Positions 47,984-56,180 of a stretch of DNA of 64,000 nucleotides are shown one piece after another. Source of the DNA: Geothrix sp. 21YS21S-2 (GTDB lineage Bacteria > Acidobacteriota > Holophagae > Holophagales > Holophagaceae). Position 1 is the stretch's first letter, and each line of letters starts with the position of its first letter. The stretch lies in contig NZ_CP132910.1 of the NCBI RefSeq assembly GCF_030846775.1, positions 1,336,001-1,400,000 on the forward strand, written 5' to 3'. Under the pieces are notes generated by a model. It was given only the letters and a program-made list of their open reading frames with translations, searched no databases and was not told the DNA's origin. The position numbers and the translations under genes are program-made.

Positions 47984-48673
47984 TCACTTGTCGAAAGGGA
48001 TGACGAGGGTGGTCTTGGGGTGGCAGTCCTTGCAGAGGACCACCGATTTCTGGTGCCCGAAATGGCACGCGGTGCAGGAGATCTCCCCGTAGTGGGATTT
48101 GTGGGGATTCAGGCCGTGGGCTTCCCTGGGCTTGGTCTTCTCCGCAAGGGCCTCGTAGGAGCCGTGGCAGGCCAGGCACCGGTCGTTCGCAACTTCGTCC
48201 CCCTTGAGGGGGAAGGCAGGACCGTGGCACCCCGAGCAGGAGACCAGCTTGGCGGCATGCTGGCCCGAAAGGAACGCCGCGGCGCCCGGGACCGGCATGA
48301 GCTCCCGGGTCCGTGCGAAATCGCCCGCGTTCGGCTTGCCCAGGTTCCGCTTGCCGCCCTTGACGGTGAAGGACCGGCCCGGCTTGAAGTCGTGGCAGGC
48401 GGAACACGGCACGCCGCTTTCCGGGGCCGCGTGTCCGCGGTGGATCCTGACGCCGAACGCGTTCTTTCCCGCGGCCGGGGCGGGCTTGCCGTGACAGGGG
48501 AGGCACTCGGCGATCGCCTTGCCCTTGACGGCCGGGTGCGCCTCCCCCAGCAGGCTCTTGAAATCGGGGTGGCAGGCGGTGCAACCCGCAGGAGCCTTCG
48601 CCGGGGCCGCGCCCAGCCCCCCGGCGAACGCCAGGAGCAGGGCCATCACCCCGTATTCGAAAAATCGTCTCAT
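47984..48673 (-). CDS. periplasmic seven-heme cytochrome c
   Basis: 229 residues with a signal peptide (MALLLAFAGGLGA) and seven CXXCH motifs: CTACH, CLPCH, CSACH, CSGCH, CLACH, CTACH and CKDCH. Heme spacing and size resemble cytochrome c7/c3-like and NapC-partner electron carriers. ATG 48673 has GGAGG 9 nt upstream. It lies 62 nt after the flavoprotein gene and should deliver electrons to it in the periplasm. Confidence 0.93.
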   Translation of the reverse strand: MRRFFEYGVMALLLAFAGGLGAAPAKAPAGCTACHPDFKSLLGEAHPAVKGKAIAECLPCHGKPAPAAGKNAFGVRIHRGHAAPESGVPCSACHDFKPGRSFTVKGGKRNLGKPNAGDFARTRELMPVPGAAAFLSGQHAAKLVSCSGCHGPAFPLKGDEVANDRCLACHGSYEALAEKTKPREAHGLNPHKSHYGEISCTACHFGHQKSVVLCKDCHPKTTLVIPFDK

Positions 48674-48735
48674 CGGGTGGTTCCTCCGGGGCCGCGGCCC
48701 CCGGTTGAACGGGGACCGCGGCGGTGGCGTATCCG

Positions 48736-50322
48736 TCAGATCTTCTCGGCCGCGGCCTTGAGGCCCGCGATGCGTCCGAACACCGTCGCGTCGGGCGTCG
48801 CATTGCCGCCCAGCCGGTTGGCGCCGTGCAGGCCGCCGGTGATCTCGCCGGCCGCATAGAGATGCGGGATCGGCTTGCCCCAGATATCGAGCACCTGGGT
48901 CTCCTTGTTGACGCGCAGGCCGCCCATGGTGTGGTGGACGGCGGGCCACTGCGCGATCGCGTAGTACGGGCCCTGCTCCTGGGAGACCATCACGCTGGTG
49001 ATGTTCTTGCCGAACTCGGGGTCCTTCTTGTCCTTGAGGTAGGAGTCGTGCTTGCGCATGGTCTCGGTGAGCACGGCCGGGTCGAGCCCGATCTTGGTTG
49101 CCAGCTCGGCGATGGTGGCGGCCCGGACGAAGCGGCCCGCGGCGACGGCCTTGTTGGCCTCCTCCATCGTGCCCATCTTGGGGATCATCGCCTCGTTGAA
49201 GATGGAGAAGGTCTTCTTGCCGCCGGTGGCCATCTCCGCCCGGGCGACCACGTCGCGGCGCTCCTGCTCGTTGACGAAGCGCACGCCCTTCTCGTTCACG
49301 TAGACGATGCCGTAGCCGGGCCCGCGGAAGGGGTACACGGCGGGGGCGTCCAGGATGCCCGTTTCGGGATCGGCGAAGGGATAGAGCTGGATGAAGGCCA
49401 TGTGGAGGGTGTCGGCCCCGACGGCCTGGGCGTAGCGGATCATCTCGCCGGTGGCGCCCTTGTGGTTGGTGCAGTTGTACCCTGCGGTCAGGGTCGGGTT
49501 GTAGATCGTGCGCATCGGGACGTCGTGGCCGAAGCCGCCCGAGGCGAGCACCACGGCCTTGCGCGCGCGGATGTTGACGGGGCCGCGGCCGGTCTCGAGC
49601 TCGACGCCCAGCACGGGGCTGTCGACGTCCTTGCGCCAGAGCCAGCTCACCTTCGCCTTCAGGCGCATCTTGGCGCCGCGCTTCTCGGCGATCTTGCGCA
49701 GCGCCTCGGTGAAGCCCTTGCCGACGCCTTCGATGCAGGTGTGGGTGCGGTACTGGCTATGGCCACCGGTGCGGTTGAGGATCTGGCGGAGCTGCAGGCC
49801 GCCCTCGTCGATCATCCAGTCCAGGGCCTTGGGGGCCTCGGCCGCGAGGATCTCGACCAGCTCGGGGCTGCCGAAGAAGTCGCCGCCCTTGAGGGTGTCG
49901 GCCTTGTGGATCTCCTGGCTGTCGACGCCGAGCTTGAAGTTCTCCCGCATCTTCAGCTTGTCGGTCCAGGCGTTGTATTCGCCGCCGTTGATGATGGAGT
50001 TGCCCCCGTAGACGGGCATCTTCTCCAGGATGATGACGGTGCTGCCCTTGCCGGCGGCTTCGGCCGCGGCGGCGAGGCCCGCGAATCCGGAGCCGATGAC
50101 GACCACGTCGTAGCTCTCGTCCCACTTGGTGGGCAGCTTCTTCTTGGCGGGGGGCGCGTCGGGCGCGGGCGCGGCGCCGAGGTTGAGCGCGAAGGTCCCC
50201 GCCGTGGCCGCCAGGCCCACCGCGAGCGAAGTCCTGAGGAAGCCTCTGCGATCGGAGCCCTGGGCTTCGCCCAGGCCGTCGTCCTGGTTCCCCCTGGCCT
50301 CGAGGTTGTCTGGGTTCTTCAT
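48736..50322 (-). CDS. Tat-exported FAD-dependent reductase (flavocytochrome c/fumarate reductase-like)
   Basis: 528 residues. Twin-arginine signal SDRRGFLRTSLAVGLAATAG. FAD-binding VVVIGSGFAGLAAAAEA, substrate region RFVNEQERRDV, HHTMGGLRVN and the C-terminal AGEITGGLHGANRLGGNA are those of soluble fumarate reductases, urocanate reductase and related enoate reductases (PF00890). No heme motif is in the protein itself; the heme partner is the next gene. The His of HHTMGG and the Arg of GANRLGG are substrate-binding positions in Shewanella FccA. The natural acceptor (fumarate, urocanate, cinnamate-type or other) cannot be told. Confidence 0.92.
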   Translation of the reverse strand: MKNPDNLEARGNQDDGLGEAQGSDRRGFLRTSLAVGLAATAGTFALNLGAAPAPDAPPAKKKLPTKWDESYDVVVIGSGFAGLAAAAEAAGKGSTVIILEKMPVYGGNSIINGGEYNAWTDKLKMRENFKLGVDSQEIHKADTLKGGDFFGSPELVEILAAEAPKALDWMIDEGGLQLRQILNRTGGHSQYRTHTCIEGVGKGFTEALRKIAEKRGAKMRLKAKVSWLWRKDVDSPVLGVELETGRGPVNIRARKAVVLASGGFGHDVPMRTIYNPTLTAGYNCTNHKGATGEMIRYAQAVGADTLHMAFIQLYPFADPETGILDAPAVYPFRGPGYGIVYVNEKGVRFVNEQERRDVVARAEMATGGKKTFSIFNEAMIPKMGTMEEANKAVAAGRFVRAATIAELATKIGLDPAVLTETMRKHDSYLKDKKDPEFGKNITSVMVSQEQGPYYAIAQWPAVHHTMGGLRVNKETQVLDIWGKPIPHLYAAGEITGGLHGANRLGGNATPDATVFGRIAGLKAAAEKI

Positions 50323-50478
50323 GTCGTTCCCCTTTCCTGGTTATGGTGTTTGCCGTGCAGGGCGAGGCCCATGCGGCCAGGCCCCGCGGCAACCTCAGTG
50401 GTAGATGAATACCCTATGGATTAATTCCACAGTAGGCCCCCCGCACGAAACCCTCAAAGGTGAGAAAGCGGGGCAATT

Positions 50479-50500
50479 TCGGGTAGGGCCGCCTACCCGA
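50479..50500. promoter_or_regulatory. 22-bp perfect dyad, half-site TCGGGTAGG
   Basis: Nine-bp arms TCGGGTAGG / CCTACCCGA with a 4-nt spacer in the gap between the divergent flavoprotein operon (start 50322) and the LuxR regulator. Candidate operator. Confidence 0.6.
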
Positions 50501-50559
50501 TTGGCAACGGAAAACCAAATCCGCATTGGCTTTACCTTCGCCCCGGAACCGTCCTGGAG

Positions 50560-50571
50560 CGGGTATACCCG
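50560..50571. promoter_or_regulatory. 12-bp palindrome CGGGTATACCCG
   Basis: Shares the CGGGTA half-site with the dyad 70 nt away, with no spacer. Two related dyads in one 358-nt divergent gap suggest a shared binding protein, most simply the adjacent LuxR-type regulator. Confidence 0.5.
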
Positions 50572-50680
50572 ACTCGCCGTTGACAAGACCTTGGCACAGG
50601 ACAATGATCGGATCATCCCGAAACGAGAACGGCCGGCCCTTCCGGCCAAGCCATTCGAAGCGCCGCGGATGGGGGTTGCC

Positions 50681-51895
50681 ATGGAGCAGCGATGGGCGTC
50701 CTTCGACGCCTCCATAGGTCAGGAGCTGTTCGAGGCGACGTCGGACCTGATCCTGGTGACCGATCCCCAGGGCGTCATCCTCCGGACCAACCGCAAGGCC
50801 GGGCGGGTCCTCGCCGACGCGCCCACCCTGGGGCTGCCCTTCTGGGTCAGGCTGGGCCTGCCCTGCGACACCCTGCAGGGGGCCCTGGAGGTCTGCTCCG
50901 CCCAGGTGCCGAAGTACGCCAGCACCGCCCTCCAGGCCGCCTTCGCCGTCCGGCTCGTCGCGCTGGGGGACGGCAGCGCCCCGGGCTTCCTGGTCCTGCT
51001 CAGCGAGATGACCGGCCCCTTCCTCCAGCGGGCGGAGCTCGAACGCCAGGTCCAGGAACGGGCCCAGGCCCTGGCCCGGTCCCAGAAGATGCTGCAGACC
51101 GTCTTCCAGGGGGTGGGCAAGGGCATCATCCTCGTCGACGAGGACCTGGAGGTCATCGGTTCGAACCAGAAGGCCTGCGAGACCTTCGGCATCCACCCCG
51201 AGAACATCCAGGGCGCCCACATCCGCTCGCTCTGCGACGAGCCGGGGCAGGCCGCCGTCCTGAGGATGCTGGACACCATCATCGAGAACCAGGTGCTGAG
51301 CGTCGAGGTGGGCGCCCTCTACTTCGACAAGCGCCGCTTCCCGGCCGTCTTCACCGTGAGCCTGATCACCGTCGAGGGGAGCAGGCTCTGGATCATCATC
51401 ACCGAGGACATCTCCAGGCAGAAGGCGATGGAACAGGAGCTCAAGACCGGCAGGGTCCTCACGGAGGAGGCCAACATCGCCCTGCGCAGCGTCCTGAAGA
51501 GCATCCAGCTCGAGCAGGAGGAGCTCTCGGCCAAGCTCTCCCGCAGGATCACCAGCGACCTGATGCCGATCCTGCACAAGATCCGGTCCGCGCCCTCCGA
51601 CGAGGTGCGCAACGGCTACATCGACTTCCTGGGCGAGCTCCTGGCCTCGCTGACCCGGAACACGGGGCCGCAGATGGATTTCGCGCTCCACCGGCTCAGC
51701 AAGACGGAGATGAAGATCTGCAATTTCATCCTGGCGGGGTTCAGCACCAAGGAGATCTGCGCCACGATGAACCTGGCCTTCGACACCGTCCAGACCCACC
51801 GGAAGAACATCCGGAGAAAGCTCGGCCTTTCGGGATCCGCCGGGATCAGCCTGCACGGGTACCTCAACAGCAAGAAGGCGGCGGTGCCCGCATGA
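50681..51895 (+). CDS. PAS-containing LuxR-type transcriptional regulator
   Basis: 404 residues from ATG 50681 (MEQRWASFDASIG), with GGGGGT upstream; ATG 50669 is equally possible. Two PAS domains (about 15-125 and 145-260; VFQGVGKGIILVDEDLEVIGSN), a coiled-coil (about 265-335), and a C-terminal LuxR/GerE helix-turn-helix (LSKTEMKICNFILAGFSTKE, TVQTHRKNIRRKLGL). No membrane segment. Divergent from the flavoprotein operon and co-transcribed with the second flavoprotein (ATGA overlap if that starts at 51892), so it probably controls both. Confidence 0.87.
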   Translation: MEQRWASFDASIGQELFEATSDLILVTDPQGVILRTNRKAGRVLADAPTLGLPFWVRLGLPCDTLQGALEVCSAQVPKYASTALQAAFAVRLVALGDGSAPGFLVLLSEMTGPFLQRAELERQVQERAQALARSQKMLQTVFQGVGKGIILVDEDLEVIGSNQKACETFGIHPENIQGAHIRSLCDEPGQAAVLRMLDTIIENQVLSVEVGALYFDKRRFPAVFTVSLITVEGSRLWIIITEDISRQKAMEQELKTGRVLTEEANIALRSVLKSIQLEQEELSAKLSRRITSDLMPILHKIRSAPSDEVRNGYIDFLGELLASLTRNTGPQMDFALHRLSKTEMKICNFILAGFSTKEICATMNLAFDTVQTHRKNIRRKLGLSGSAGISLHGYLNSKKAAVPA

Positions 51896-51930
51896 CCGCA
51901 GCCCGCACCGCAAGACTCCAGGGAGTTCCG

Positions 51931-53322
51931 ATGTTCGACGAGACCTTTGACGTCCTGGTCGTCGGTTCCGGCTACGCCGGGCTCTCGGCGGCGATCGAGG
52001 CCAGGCTCGCGGGCCGGTCCGTGCTGGTCATCGAGAAGATGAAGCTGCCCGGAGGCAATTCCGCGCTCAGCGGCGGCCTGTTCGCGGTGGCCAACGCCCC
52101 CCTCCAGGCCGCTGAGGGGATCGAGGACTCGCCGGCCCTGCTGGCCGGGGACATGTTCAAGGCCGGCCACGGGCTGAACCACCCCGAGCTCGTGCGCACC
52201 GTGGCCGCCGGTTCCCTGGAGGCCTTCCTCTGGTGCCGGGACTACCTCGGCGTGGCCTTCGCCGACAGCCTGCACCATGGGGGCGGCCACTCCGTTCCGC
52301 GCACCTACAGTCCCGCCAACTGTTCCGGCTCCGTGATCCTGCAGGCCCTCCTGGTGAAGTGCCGGGAGCTGGGGATCCCCATCCGGCTGCAGACCGCGCT
52401 GGAGGGGTTCATCCTCGACGGGGACGGCCGGGTCACCGGGGCCGCCGTCCGCGCGGACTACATCTTCCCCCAGGAGGACAGCGGCGCCCCCCGCAGGATC
52501 GGGGCCGCCCAGGGCCTCGTCCTGGCCAGCGGCGGCTGGTGCCAGGACGTGGAATTCCGGAGGGTGCAGGACCCCGGCCTGGACGGCGCGCTGGAGACCA
52601 CCAACCACCCCGGGGCCACGGCCGAGGGCCTGGTGAGCGCCCTCCGGATCGGCGCTACGCCCCTCCACCTCTCCTGGATCCAGCTGGGGCCCTGGACCTC
52701 CCGGGACGAGGAGGGCTGGGGGGTCAGCACCATGTTCTCGGTGCTGGTGGGCCTGCGCCACGGGGTCATGGTCGACGCGTCCACCGGAAGGCGCTTCGTG
52801 AACGAGCTCGCGGACCGGCTCTCCCGCGCCCGCGAAATGGTCGCCGCCGGGCGGGACCCCATGCTGATCGTGGGCGGAAGGGCGGCGCGGCAGTACCCGA
52901 ACCTGGCGCAGTGCCTGAAGCGCGGAGCCGTGAAGCGCTACGGGACGCTCGAGGAGCTCGCCCAGGACCAGGCCATCGATCCGGCCGCGCTGTCGGAGAC
53001 CCTGGAGCACTTCAACCGGTCGCTGGACGAAGGCGTCGACCTGGAATTCGGCAGGCCCCTGGGAACCCAGGAGCGGTACCGCGTCGAACCGCCCTACCAC
53101 CTCGTGCGGCTCCGCCCCAAGCTCCACTACTGCAACGGCGGCATCCAGATCGACGCCGACGCCCGGGTCCTGGACCTCGGGCGCCACCAGCCGATCCCGG
53201 GCCTCCTGGCCGCCGGCGAGGTCACCGGCGGCGTGCACGGGGCCTGCAGGCTGGGCGGCATGGCCATCCCCGAGTGCATCGTGTTCGGCCGGATCGCGGG
53301 GAGGAACGCCTCCCGGGCCTGA
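51931..53322 (+). CDS. leaderless FAD-dependent reductase, paralogue of the Tat-exported one
   Basis: 463 residues. FAD motif FDVLVVGSGYAGLSAAIEA and C-terminus AGEVTGGVHGACRLGGMA follow the same family as 48736-50322, but HHTMGG is replaced by LHYCNGG and there is no signal peptide, so it is cytoplasmic and probably has a different substrate. ATG 51931 is preferred because AGGGAG lies 6 nt upstream; ATG 51892 overlaps the regulator stop and would add 13 residues. It is convergent, 6 nt from the three-module membrane protein gene. Confidence 0.88.
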   Translation: MFDETFDVLVVGSGYAGLSAAIEARLAGRSVLVIEKMKLPGGNSALSGGLFAVANAPLQAAEGIEDSPALLAGDMFKAGHGLNHPELVRTVAAGSLEAFLWCRDYLGVAFADSLHHGGGHSVPRTYSPANCSGSVILQALLVKCRELGIPIRLQTALEGFILDGDGRVTGAAVRADYIFPQEDSGAPRRIGAAQGLVLASGGWCQDVEFRRVQDPGLDGALETTNHPGATAEGLVSALRIGATPLHLSWIQLGPWTSRDEEGWGVSTMFSVLVGLRHGVMVDASTGRRFVNELADRLSRAREMVAAGRDPMLIVGGRAARQYPNLAQCLKRGAVKRYGTLEELAQDQAIDPAALSETLEHFNRSLDEGVDLEFGRPLGTQERYRVEPPYHLVRLRPKLHYCNGGIQIDADARVLDLGRHQPIPGLLAAGEVTGGVHGACRLGGMAIPECIVFGRIAGRNASRA

Positions 53323-53328
53323 AGGCGC

Positions 53329-55254
53329 TCACGCCAGCCGTGAGAACCTCCGGTTCGACTCCGGGAAGTCCGCCCCCAGGGCCAGCCACACGCAGAGCCC
53401 CGCGCCCAGGGCCGCGGCGAAGGCCGTCCCGTCCAGGCGCGCCCCGGGGGCCGGACCCGCGCCGCCCAGGCACGTGAGGAAGGCCCCCAGGGCCGCGACG
53501 GGGACCGCGACCCACTGGTAGAGCCGCAGCCCCCCGAGGACGGGGGTCTGGGGCTCGCCCCGGGTGCCTTCCTCCGCGAACCGGCCCAGGCTGTTGAGCA
53601 CCAGGTAGACGCCGGCGATGAAGGGGAGGCCCGCGCCCACTCGCCAGAGGCGAAGGAGGACCAGCCAGGTCACGCCGTTCCAGAGGATCGAATAGAGGGG
53701 GGAGGGATGGAGGGGGAGGCCCCGGAGCCCGGAGAGCCGGGACACCCGGGACCGGGGATGGACGTAGCGGATGCCCACGGACGCCGGCGCCACCCGGCCG
53801 TGGCAGCAGCCCTGGACGAGGCACCGCACCCGGCCCAGGCCCTGGATCACGGGCCCCGCCACCGCTGCGGCGCCCAGCAGCAGCCAGCCCTGGCCAGAGA
53901 GGAGGTGCCCGGCCAGGACGCCGGCGAAGGTGCCCAGCACGCCGCCGTAATAGCCGTAGGGCCGGAGCAGCTCCGGGCCCCCCTCGACGAGCTGGGCCCA
54001 CAGGCCCGCCCCGGCCAGGCCGCAGAGCACCACCAGCAGGATCTCCGGCGTGAGGGTTCCGCCCGTGAAGGCGCACATGAGGAGGACCCCCAGGCCCACC
54101 CCCAGGCCCGCCCAGAACCCGTGGTTGATGATGCGCAGGGGCCCCAGGCGCCACTCACGCCAGGAATTGGCCACCCTCTCGGCCCCGCGGCGCAGGAACT
54201 CCCATAGGGCGTCCGCGCGCAGGGCGCCCCAGCCCAGGAGGGCCCCGGCGGCCACGTCGGCCAGCGTGTGCATGCCCGTGGCCGCGCAGGCCCACACCAC
54301 CAGTGCCGCCCAGAGCCGGGCGGCAGGCTTCCACCGGGGGGAGGCCGCCCCGGCCGCCAGGATCGCCCAGGCGGCGTGGAAGGACGGGAAGGCGCACATG
54401 GGGGTGTCGTGGAGGCGCTCCCACTGCAGGAGGCGCCCCAGGGGCCCGGCCGCCTCGAAGGGCCGGGGGGGCGCCATCACGGGCAGGACCGCGAAGCAGA
54501 GGGTGCCCGCAAGGGTGGCCACGAGCCCCGCGGTGCAGAACCGGCGCAGGTCCCGGCCGGACCGCGCCAGCCAGGGCACGGCGAGGACCCACAGGTAGAG
54601 GCTGGCGTAGGGGAGCTCGGCCTCCTCCACCACCGGCCAGCCCCGCTCGAAGGGAAGGCCGAGGTCGAGGGCGTCCCGGGGCGTGCCCAGGGCCGCCGCG
54701 AGCCCGTAGAGCAGAAGCCAGGGCAGGAGCACCAGGACGTAGGCGGAGGCCCGGTCCGCCGGGGTGGGCGGACCGTCCTGGGCCGCGGGAAGGCGCAGCA
54801 GGGGCCCGCGCCTTTCCCGGCCGAACCGCGCGTCCAGGGCCGGGCCCTCGTAGCCCAGCACGAGGGCCGCGCAGCCCAGGACCACCGCCGGGCCCACCAG
54901 CCAGAACCCGCTGCCCGAGCCCGTGGCCATGGCCGCGCCCAGGCACAGGACGCAGAATCCCGCGTAGATGGGATGCGGGGTGAGGGCGTAGAGGCCGCGG
55001 ACCACGAGGCGCCGGGGCGGGTAGGCGTTCATGGGCAGGCCCTCCCCGTGGCGCGTGAGGGTCGCCATGGCCAGGAGCATCGCCAGGCCCCCCGCCGCCG
55101 CCAGGATCCGGCCGGCCCAGGCGGGGCCCGGCGGCGGGAGCCGGACCTGCCCGGCCGCGCCCCGCGCCCAGGCCCAGAGCAGGAGCGGCAGGAGGACCAC
55201 GAAGAGGAGGGCGTAGAGGAGCTTGCCGAGGCGGGGGGACATGGGGGGCCTCAT
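53329..55254 (-). CDS. three-module membrane protein: ICMT-like, PAP2-like and Lgt-like
   Basis: 641 residues, about 18 hydrophobic helices. Residues 1-165 resemble isoprenylcysteine carboxyl methyltransferase/PEMT proteins (LVVRGLYALTPHPIYAGF, YEGPALDARFG). Residues about 170-355 resemble PAP2/inositol-phosphoceramide synthase phosphatases (FPSFHAAWAIL, GMHTLADVAAGALLGWG). Residues about 370-620 resemble prolipoprotein diacylglyceryl transferase (LLRPYGYYGGVLG, GRVRCLVQGCCHGR, HPSPLYSILWNG, GRFAEEGTRGEP), with classical Lgt His and Asn positions altered. All three modules handle lipids. The ATG overlaps the upstream gene stop (ATGA). I know of no named protein with this order; function not assigned. 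Confidence 0.78.
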   Translation of the reverse strand: MRPPMSPRLGKLLYALLFVVLLPLLLWAWARGAAGQVRLPPPGPAWAGRILAAAGGLAMLLAMATLTRHGEGLPMNAYPPRRLVVRGLYALTPHPIYAGFCVLCLGAAMATGSGSGFWLVGPAVVLGCAALVLGYEGPALDARFGRERRGPLLRLPAAQDGPPTPADRASAYVLVLLPWLLLYGLAAALGTPRDALDLGLPFERGWPVVEEAELPYASLYLWVLAVPWLARSGRDLRRFCTAGLVATLAGTLCFAVLPVMAPPRPFEAAGPLGRLLQWERLHDTPMCAFPSFHAAWAILAAGAASPRWKPAARLWAALVVWACAATGMHTLADVAAGALLGWGALRADALWEFLRRGAERVANSWREWRLGPLRIINHGFWAGLGVGLGVLLMCAFTGGTLTPEILLVVLCGLAGAGLWAQLVEGGPELLRPYGYYGGVLGTFAGVLAGHLLSGQGWLLLGAAAVAGPVIQGLGRVRCLVQGCCHGRVAPASVGIRYVHPRSRVSRLSGLRGLPLHPSPLYSILWNGVTWLVLLRLWRVGAGLPFIAGVYLVLNSLGRFAEEGTRGEPQTPVLGGLRLYQWVAVPVAALGAFLTCLGGAGPAPGARLDGTAFAAALGAGLCVWLALGADFPESNRRFSRLA

Positions 55255-56048
55255 GGGGTGCCGACGGTTTCATGGATGACCCAGCCACGGACGTCCGGAG
55301 CGCCTTCCCTGTGCAGGACGCCGGAACTCCTCCATTTGCGCTCCCGCAGGGCGCCGAAGGAGGCCGGGACGAGGCCGGCGACGGCCGGGAACCGGAGGAG
55401 GCCCGGCGGCAGGACCGGCGCGTCCCGGATGACGAGGCGGTCCGGGACCTCGAGCTCCAAGGTGGCGCCGGGAAGGCTCACCCGGTCCTCCTCCACCCGC
55501 CCCCCGGCCACCTCCCGGCCGTCCAGGACGGTCCAGGTCCGCGGCGCGGCCCCGCGCCATCCGATCCACACCAGGGAGGCCCCCCCGCCCGCGAAGCGCC
55601 CCCAGCGCAGCTCCTCGAAGGGGAGGTGCCAGGGTCCGTACCCGAGGTCCAGGCGCTCGGCGTAGCCGTCGCCCCGGAGGCGCCGCCCGCCCAGGACGAG
55701 CTCCACCGCCGAGGCCGGCTGCAGGCAGGCCCAGGTGAGGTCCCGGCCCTGGCGCTCGTGCAGCCGCAGCGTGCATGGCGGGCAGCGCGCCTCCCACCGG
55801 CCCTCCAGGTCCAGGGGACGGCAGGACCAGCCGAGGTGGCCGTCCAGGACCCTGGGCTCGTCCGAAGGGCGGAAGGAGGACGCCGCCTCCCCTTCGGCCC
55901 CCAGGCGGCTGCAGTAGCTCAGGTCCAGCCCCCCCAGGCTCAGCCGGGCCCAATAGCCGATGAAGACCTCCCCGTGGGGGGTGACGCAGTCGAGGTACCA
56001 CTTGCGAAGGCGGAAGGCGTCCATGGGTCTCTGGGGGCTTTCGCCCAT
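55251..56048 (-). CDS. lipocalin/CrtC-AttH-like protein
   Basis: About 265 residues, no signal peptide. Beta-rich, with KWYLDCVTPHGEVFIGYWA, GDGYAERLDLGYGPW and LRWGRF, reminiscent of hydroxyneurosporene synthase/AttH lipocalin-like proteins that bind carotenoids or other hydrophobic molecules; similarity is weak and uncertain. ATG 56048 is favoured by AGGAG 4 nt upstream; ATG 56024 is an alternative. Translationally coupled to the three-module membrane protein, so a lipid or isoprenoid substrate is plausible. Confidence 0.6.
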   Translation of the reverse strand: MGESPQRPMDAFRLRKWYLDCVTPHGEVFIGYWARLSLGGLDLSYCSRLGAEGEAASSFRPSDEPRVLDGHLGWSCRPLDLEGRWEARCPPCTLRLHERQGRDLTWACLQPASAVELVLGGRRLRGDGYAERLDLGYGPWHLPFEELRWGRFAGGGASLVWIGWRGAAPRTWTVLDGREVAGGRVEEDRVSLPGATLELEVPDRLVIRDAPVLPPGLLRFPAVAGLVPASFGALRERKWRSSGVLHREGAPDVRGWVIHETVGTP

Positions 56049-56180
56049 CCTACTCCTGGATGGCGCGGAGGTCCTGGAGGTTCCAAAAAACAATCAATTC
56101 AACATATAGCCGGGAATTTCCGGAGAACCCTATCAGTCCCAGGGAATAGCCGGGACAATGGACCCAAGGAGCCCCAGACC

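Follow-up and report, generated by a model that had tools for sequence, protein, structure and literature searches.

A gene pair of Geothrix encoding a PEMT–PAP2–Lgt fusion protein and a calycin-like partner points to a candidate lipid-modifying pathway

Introduction

To our knowledge, Lgt is an enzyme that faces the periplasm and makes only lipoproteins. In the BtaA/BtaB betaine-lipid pathway, a diacylglyceryl group is joined to a small amino-acid-derived acceptor, which is then N-methylated. In E. coli Lgt, mutation is not tolerated at R143, R239, E243 or R246, and His103 is essential (H103Y fails to complement; PMC4728403). Lipidation of MYXO-CTERM cysteines by an Lgt-like enzyme has been proposed (PMC11980579), and the catalytic set of the calycin-type protein CrtC is His239, Trp241, Tyr266 and Asp268 (PMC4717167).

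Here we describe a gene pair from Geothrix sp. 21YS21S-2, found in a stretch of 64,000 nucleotides (contig NZ_CP132910.1, positions 1,336,001 to 1,400,000; hereafter the window), in which modules of the PEMT, PAP2 and Lgt families are joined in one membrane protein next to a calycin-like protein. All three modules are members of known families; their combination, the calycin-like partner and the predicted orientation were not found described in the open-licence papers searched.

The gene pair

The calycin-like gene lies upstream of the fusion gene on the same strand. The pair and its modules have the following window coordinates:

53329–55254, minus strand: fusion gene, 641 aa, PEMT + PAP2_3 + LGT, about 17 transmembrane helices (Pfam, AlphaFold model)
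55251–55254, minus strand: ATGA stop/start overlap between the calycin-like gene and the fusion gene
55251–56048, minus strand: calycin-like partner gene, 265 aa (ATG at 56048) or 257 aa (ATG at 56024)
54817–55116, minus strand: PEMT-family methyltransferase module, aa 47–146 (Pfam PEMT, E 9.2e-6)
54220–54597, minus strand: PAP2_3 module, aa 220–345, with PSFH and TGMHxxxD (Pfam, E 1.1e-13)
53473–54144, minus strand: Lgt-like module, aa 371–594 (Pfam LGT, E 3.6e-18; 5azb, Z 15.9)

An earlier note, made from the sequence alone, had read here a 641-residue protein with three lipid-enzyme modules, coupled to the upstream gene by an ATGA overlap. Both readings are borne out: the overlap is present, the PEMT, PAP2_3 and LGT domains all pass their Pfam gathering cut-offs, and the structure prediction agrees, with the three modules in series in the AlphaFold model (pLDDT 86.9, pTM 0.88). 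Foldseek ranked Lgt first for this model, followed by inositol phosphorylceramide (IPC) synthase, Aur1 and a sphingomyelin-synthase (SMS)-related protein; module structures were then compared by VIA-align (Z scores). A profile of the fusion retrieved Lgt 5azb from the PDB, a single fusion sequence gave no match there by phmmer, and a tblastn search of plasmid records with the fusion gave none either. Homologues with the same module order were found at 13 loci; their fusion proteins are 38–52% identical to that of the window, so the architecture is not a chance joining.

The earlier note had also raised the possibility of an undescribed lipid-modifying system. We searched open-licence papers and found no description of the architecture, the calycin partner or the orientation, which agrees with that suggestion. 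As judged from sequence and predicted structure, the pair points to a putative lipid-modifying pathway, none such having been found described in that literature.

Methyltransferase and PAP2 modules

The first module scores 26.5 bits against the PEMT cut-off of 25 bits in the window protein, and homologues reach 34.8 bits. ICMT (PF04140) gives 12.7 bits against a cut-off of 24 (E 0.18), and a single homologue is just over that cut-off (24.7 bits). Of the 'ICMT-like' label given earlier, the part that stands is a membrane methyltransferase of PEMT/ICMT type; the match to ICMT proper is weak and below cut-off. The module shares the HPxYxG and downstream Glu motifs with PEMT/ICMT-type methyltransferases (PF04191/PF04140), and its conserved residues are GLPMN...HPIYxG and E136, but it has a signature of its own (GxGLPMNAxPP) and no Tyr pair after FG. 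Residues 1–154 of the model match steroid 5-alpha-reductase weakly (Z 7.9).

The PAP2 module of the window protein (51.9 bits, cut-off 27) carries the catalytic histidine motifs PSFH and TGMHTLAD. PAP2 enzymes match the model over about residues 194–351, with LpxE at Z 11.8, the SMS-related protein at 11.4 and IPC synthase at 11.2. Fold and motifs (PSxH and HxxxD) are those of the PAP2_3 enzymes (IPC synthase/Aur1, the SMS-related protein and the phosphatase LpxE); unlike these, PAP2 here sits inside a fusion, and three homologues have lost its motifs (see below).

Lgt module

The Lgt module contains the following segments:

53941–53964, minus strand: RPYGYYGG, with Tyr where E. coli Lgt has His103
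53797–53835, minus strand: Lgt signature GRVRCLVQGCCHG, whose Arg corresponds to E. coli R143
53554–53583, minus strand: RFAEEGTRGE, with the equivalents of E. coli R239, E243 and R246

Membership in the LGT family (PF01790) is clear (66.2 bits against a gathering score of 24.9), and Lgt 5azb matches the model over residues 355–597. The module shares with Lgt the fold, the signature motif region, the donor-activating arginines and Glu243/Arg246; it differs in being joined to two extra enzymes, in an extra C-terminal helix, in the replaced Tyr235 and in a predicted inverted orientation. Scores for the NCBIfam lipoprotein equivalogs are far below the cut-offs (31 against 118.9 bits for TIGR00544, 44.6 against 334 for NF000778).

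The claim that the module is without standard catalytic residues fails on comparison. The equivalents of E. coli R143, R239, E243 and R246 are kept in the fusions (the homologue of L071 is without the E243/R246 stretch). At the His103 position the fusions have Tyr or Phe. Ordinary Lgts of these lineages usually carry Tyr there too, with Cys the norm at Asn146/Glu151, and the same Tyr/Cys pattern is seen in four genomes where just one Lgt was detected (G084, G086, G091 and G096). His103 is therefore a weak mark of membership in these phyla, and since H103Y was tested in E. coli (PMC4728403), a Tyr at 103 is informative only against the E. coli background. Where the earlier note saw Gln in place of Asn, Ala is the usual residue in these lineages. 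Residue loss was accordingly discarded as evidence for a new function of the Lgt module. What distinguishes the fusions is R-x-R-C ahead of the motif, Gln or Asn at position 149, and replacement of the Tyr235 equivalent in all of them.

The replaced Tyr235, together with Tyr or Phe at the His103 position, would suit a module that has become a dead lipid-binding scaffold. We consider this improbable, because Lgt is the most conserved of the three modules and R475, R477, CCHG and R558 are invariant across the fusions.

We note that in L071 (7091–8833) about 57 residues are absent from the Lgt module right after the Arg239 equivalent, reflecting either an assembly error or an inactive copy.

Membrane topology

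Three loops outside the Lgt head, which are cytoplasmic in E. coli Lgt, contain 11 Lys/Arg in the E. coli enzyme. The mean for these loops is 10.0 in 23 ordinary single-domain Lgts versus 1.15 in the 13 fusions. A second set of ordinary Lgts gave 7–13 against 0–3 in the fusions, after about a dozen wrong-frame ORFs were left out (the mean of 8.3 with them included is too low). The head shows the opposite trend, with 2.7 Lys+Arg in single Lgts versus 6.2 in fusions. In the 17-helix model of the whole protein, with helix ends assigned manually on the predicted structure, the 10 loops predicted to be inside have 0.97–2.37 Lys+Arg per 10 residues and the 9 predicted outside loops 0.17–0.66, without overlap; so perfect a separation has a probability of 1.1e-5 under random labelling. 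The loop order fits without any forced crossing: PEMT and PAP2 each begin and finish inside, with the PAP2 motifs outside, and an amphipathic, Arg-rich helix (347–362) leads into Lgt. Given these inside ends and the charge pattern, the Lgt head is placed inside as well, and the extra C-terminal helix returns an Arg-rich tail to the same side:

53332–53352, minus strand: Arg-rich C-terminal tail RRFSRLA, predicted to be cytoplasmic

The outer loops are also charge-poor (3 Lys/Arg) in the protein of L076, in which PEMT is joined straight to Lgt.

Judged by positive-inside analysis only, the Lgt head would not face the periplasm. The charge rule and the predicted model strongly suggest a topology in which the Lgt head would face the cytoplasm together with the SAM site of PEMT, and PAP2 would face the periplasm, with the Lgt fold inverted relative to E. 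coli Lgt. The proposal that Lgt acts on a different acceptor may still be right, then, with the charge pattern (head facing the cytoplasm) in place of the residue-based reason, which fails.

An accessory Lgt that carries extra domains, keeps the usual orientation and lipidates exported prolipoproteins would account for the clear LGT family membership and the retained arginines. It is an unlikely reading: the charge pattern is reversed in all fusions, the equivalog scores are far too low, and the fusion Lgt is never the sole Lgt of its genome. All 13 fusion genomes encode a further Lgt that scores higher than the fusion (two Lgts in the window genome, and at least one in each of the other 12). 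With these Lgts present and the equivalog models rejecting the fusion at the sequence level, we take the fusion not to be the housekeeping Lgt.

Calycin-like partner

The partner has a soluble-looking N-terminus with no obvious signal peptide by eye, no match in Pfam or NCBIfam, and a model of pLDDT 92.1. AttH, kievitone hydratase, CghA/Fsa2/Phm7 and 25-phosphosteroid lyase match this model over its full length (Z 16.5–21.6, 224–238 residues), and the next unrelated fold follows at Z 7.9. None of the 14 calycin members matches the CrtC or AttH Pfam families (the one trace is a sub-threshold AsqO_C hit, E 0.027), and the calycin profile found no match among PDB sequences. The earlier 'CrtC/AttH-like' description therefore holds at the level of fold, a two-domain calycin, without a Pfam match.

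Across its whole length the partner shares this fold with AttH, CrtC, kievitone hydratase, the fungal pericyclases and 25-phosphosteroid lyase; it is, however, short (257–265 aa versus about 320–380 aa) and only 9–13% identical to AttH/CrtC-type calycins. The GY..(H/E) region of the calycins aligns, but no clear counterparts of the CrtC catalytic residues could be recognised.

Distribution and co-inheritance

Searching genome contigs and whole genomes, we located the pair at 13 loci, scattered over at least three major bacterial groups (Acidobacteriota, Myxococcota and, with one record, the Boseaceae). These include the window genome, a genome of the same family (G034), one of another acidobacterial family (G115), the Boseaceae record (L004/G341), a deltaproteobacterial MAG (L005/G342) and eight genomes of the phylum of that MAG (G450, G353, G363, G370, G365, G493, G399 and G389), which is most likely Myxococcota, as inferred from its MYXO-CTERM proteins. 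The two genes overlap by 4–13 nt in the nine loci measured and also overlap in the MAG record, and the frames abut in G115. Calycin matches of any kind are infrequent: 7 of 297 Acidobacteriota, 3 of 398 Pseudomonadota and, in the phylum of the MAG, 12 of 195 genomes have one, some of them being fragments or lying in other contexts. Pairwise distances of the fusion and the calycin correlate (r 0.655, reached by 0 of 5000 permutations).

The motifs of all three modules are kept in 9 of 13 homologues, one further homologue having His replaced by Asp in PEMT. PEMT motifs are lost in one of the 13 and PAP2 motifs in three (L068, L073 and L005), and it is these three whose Lgt motif has Asn in place of Gln (ANGCC for VQGCC), an association that shared ancestry may explain. 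Mean pairwise identity is highest for Lgt (48%) and lowest for PAP2 (34%). This pattern bears on the possibility that head-group exchange is the main reaction, with PAP2 acting like an IPC or sphingomyelin synthase and Lgt and PEMT as helpers: the closest Foldseek matches of the PAP2 module are of this kind (IPC synthase, Aur1 and the SMS-related protein), yet the phosphatase LpxE scores as high in the VIA comparison, and PAP2 is the least conserved module and the one whose motifs are gone in three homologues, which makes such a role rather unlikely.

No other gene family recurs among the neighbours of the pair in the 13 loci. A lipidation of cytoplasmic proteins akin to eukaryotic CaaX processing, in which an inverted Lgt would add diacylglyceryl to a protein cysteine and a PEMT/ICMT-type module methylate its carboxylate, fits the predicted placement of both sites on one face; but no substrate gene is conserved beside the pair in the 13 loci, the window module scores as PEMT and not ICMT, and PAP2 and the calycin are left unexplained. 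We hold it to be very unlikely. Slighter by far is the chance that the fusion carries out the lipidation of MYXO-CTERM cysteines that PMC11980579 proposes for an Lgt-like enzyme: Myxococcota homologues do co-occur with MYXO-CTERM proteins, but none was found in four of the eight genomes tested (the window genome, G034, G115 and the Boseaceae genome), and those cysteines are on the periplasmic side. For the window genome this candidate was rejected, no MYXO-CTERM having been found there.

Other loci carry remnants or variants. Calycin fragments in L050 (7301–7784, where the C-terminal end of a fusion also remains) and L048 (7803–8561) look like decaying copies of the pair. L074 (1115–3889) has two calycin copies with the same profile score; a broken fusion gene comes after the first of them, and the duplication may be an assembly repeat. 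In L079 (9340–10137) a lone calycin homologue without fusion partner adjoins a menC-looking gene in a small Gammaproteobacteria-like genome. The pair in L043 (4436–8838) lies between kbl, which it overlaps by 4 nt, and a tdh-like gene; a sphingolipid link drawn from this context was rejected, as the pair looks inserted into a housekeeping gene pair.

Related gene clusters

Three side types surround related calycins. L049 combines the calycin with PEMT-PAP2, a PLP decarboxylase and an aldehyde dehydrogenase; L077 combines it with a radical SAM protein, a PLP decarboxylase, a PEMT-acyltransferase, an acyl carrier protein and a hydrolase; and L076 with a desaturase, a PALP enzyme, PEMT-Lgt, an ABC ATPase and an ABC-permease/PAP2 fusion. 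All three look like amino-lipid gene clusters, with a PLP enzyme nearby in each (Orn/DAP/Arg decarboxylase twice, PALP once); no PLP enzyme is common to the 13 main loci. Calycin and PEMT occur in all three side types, and what is fused to PEMT varies (PAP2, Lgt or an acyltransferase), so the first two form the constant core. From the PLP enzymes, together with the radical SAM and acyl carrier proteins of L077, an amino-acid-derived head group is a reasonable guess.

Proposed function

Our leading reading, put forward tentatively, is a self-contained two-gene lipid-tailoring system that would carry out cytoplasm-facing diacylglyceryl transfer and methylation on a non-lipoprotein acceptor; this grading covers the general scheme, and the particular product lies outside it. 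The three modules, the retained donor-activating residues of Lgt and the inheritance of the pair as a unit are computed, and the substrates are what we infer. The soluble calycin would bind or chemically prepare a hydrophobic acceptor. The Lgt module would move diacylglyceryl from a phosphatidylglycerol-type donor to a small acceptor with a thiol, hydroxyl or amine group at the inner leaflet, which would not be an exported lipoprotein. The PEMT module would methylate what results, for which a methylated head group, betaine-like or other, would be suitable, and PAP2, where intact, might remove or exchange a phospho-head group on the outer leaflet. With PAP2 motifs lost in three of 13 homologues and PEMT motifs in one, not every step would be essential. 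The scheme resembles the BtaA/BtaB pathway in concept only, as a hypothetical analogy between unrelated enzymes.

A more specific version, in which an inverted Lgt fused to a methyltransferase performs diacylglycerylation at the cytoplasmic face and yields a new class of methylated thioether/ether lipids or a lipidated small molecule, is doubtful, if worth keeping in view. Should the catalytic core indeed face the cytoplasm, it would show that inversion of the Lgt fold, and its re-use on a different acceptor, can occur; with only two genes, the pair is also a compact starting point in the search for a new membrane lipid.

Absence from congeners and genomic context

Two genomes of the same genus (G002 and G005), with flanks 80–90% identical to those of the window, have about 40 bp in place of about 2.8 kb, and the flanks are continuous. 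The absent DNA comprises the gene pair and little else:

53323–56090, strand not assigned: approximate block absent from congeners G002 and G005 (comparison of flanking DNA)

Terminal repeats are not evident by eye at this block, so that gain and loss are indistinguishable. A functional link to the neighbouring genes (flavoproteins, a histidine kinase and glycogen enzymes) was rejected, since none of them recurs beside the pair and the congeners keep them without it. We note that the region next to the pair (47984–53322 of the window), which the congeners retain although they lack the pair, encodes a respiratory reductase set: a multihaem cytochrome and two flavoproteins that bind FAD, of which one has a Tat-like signal.
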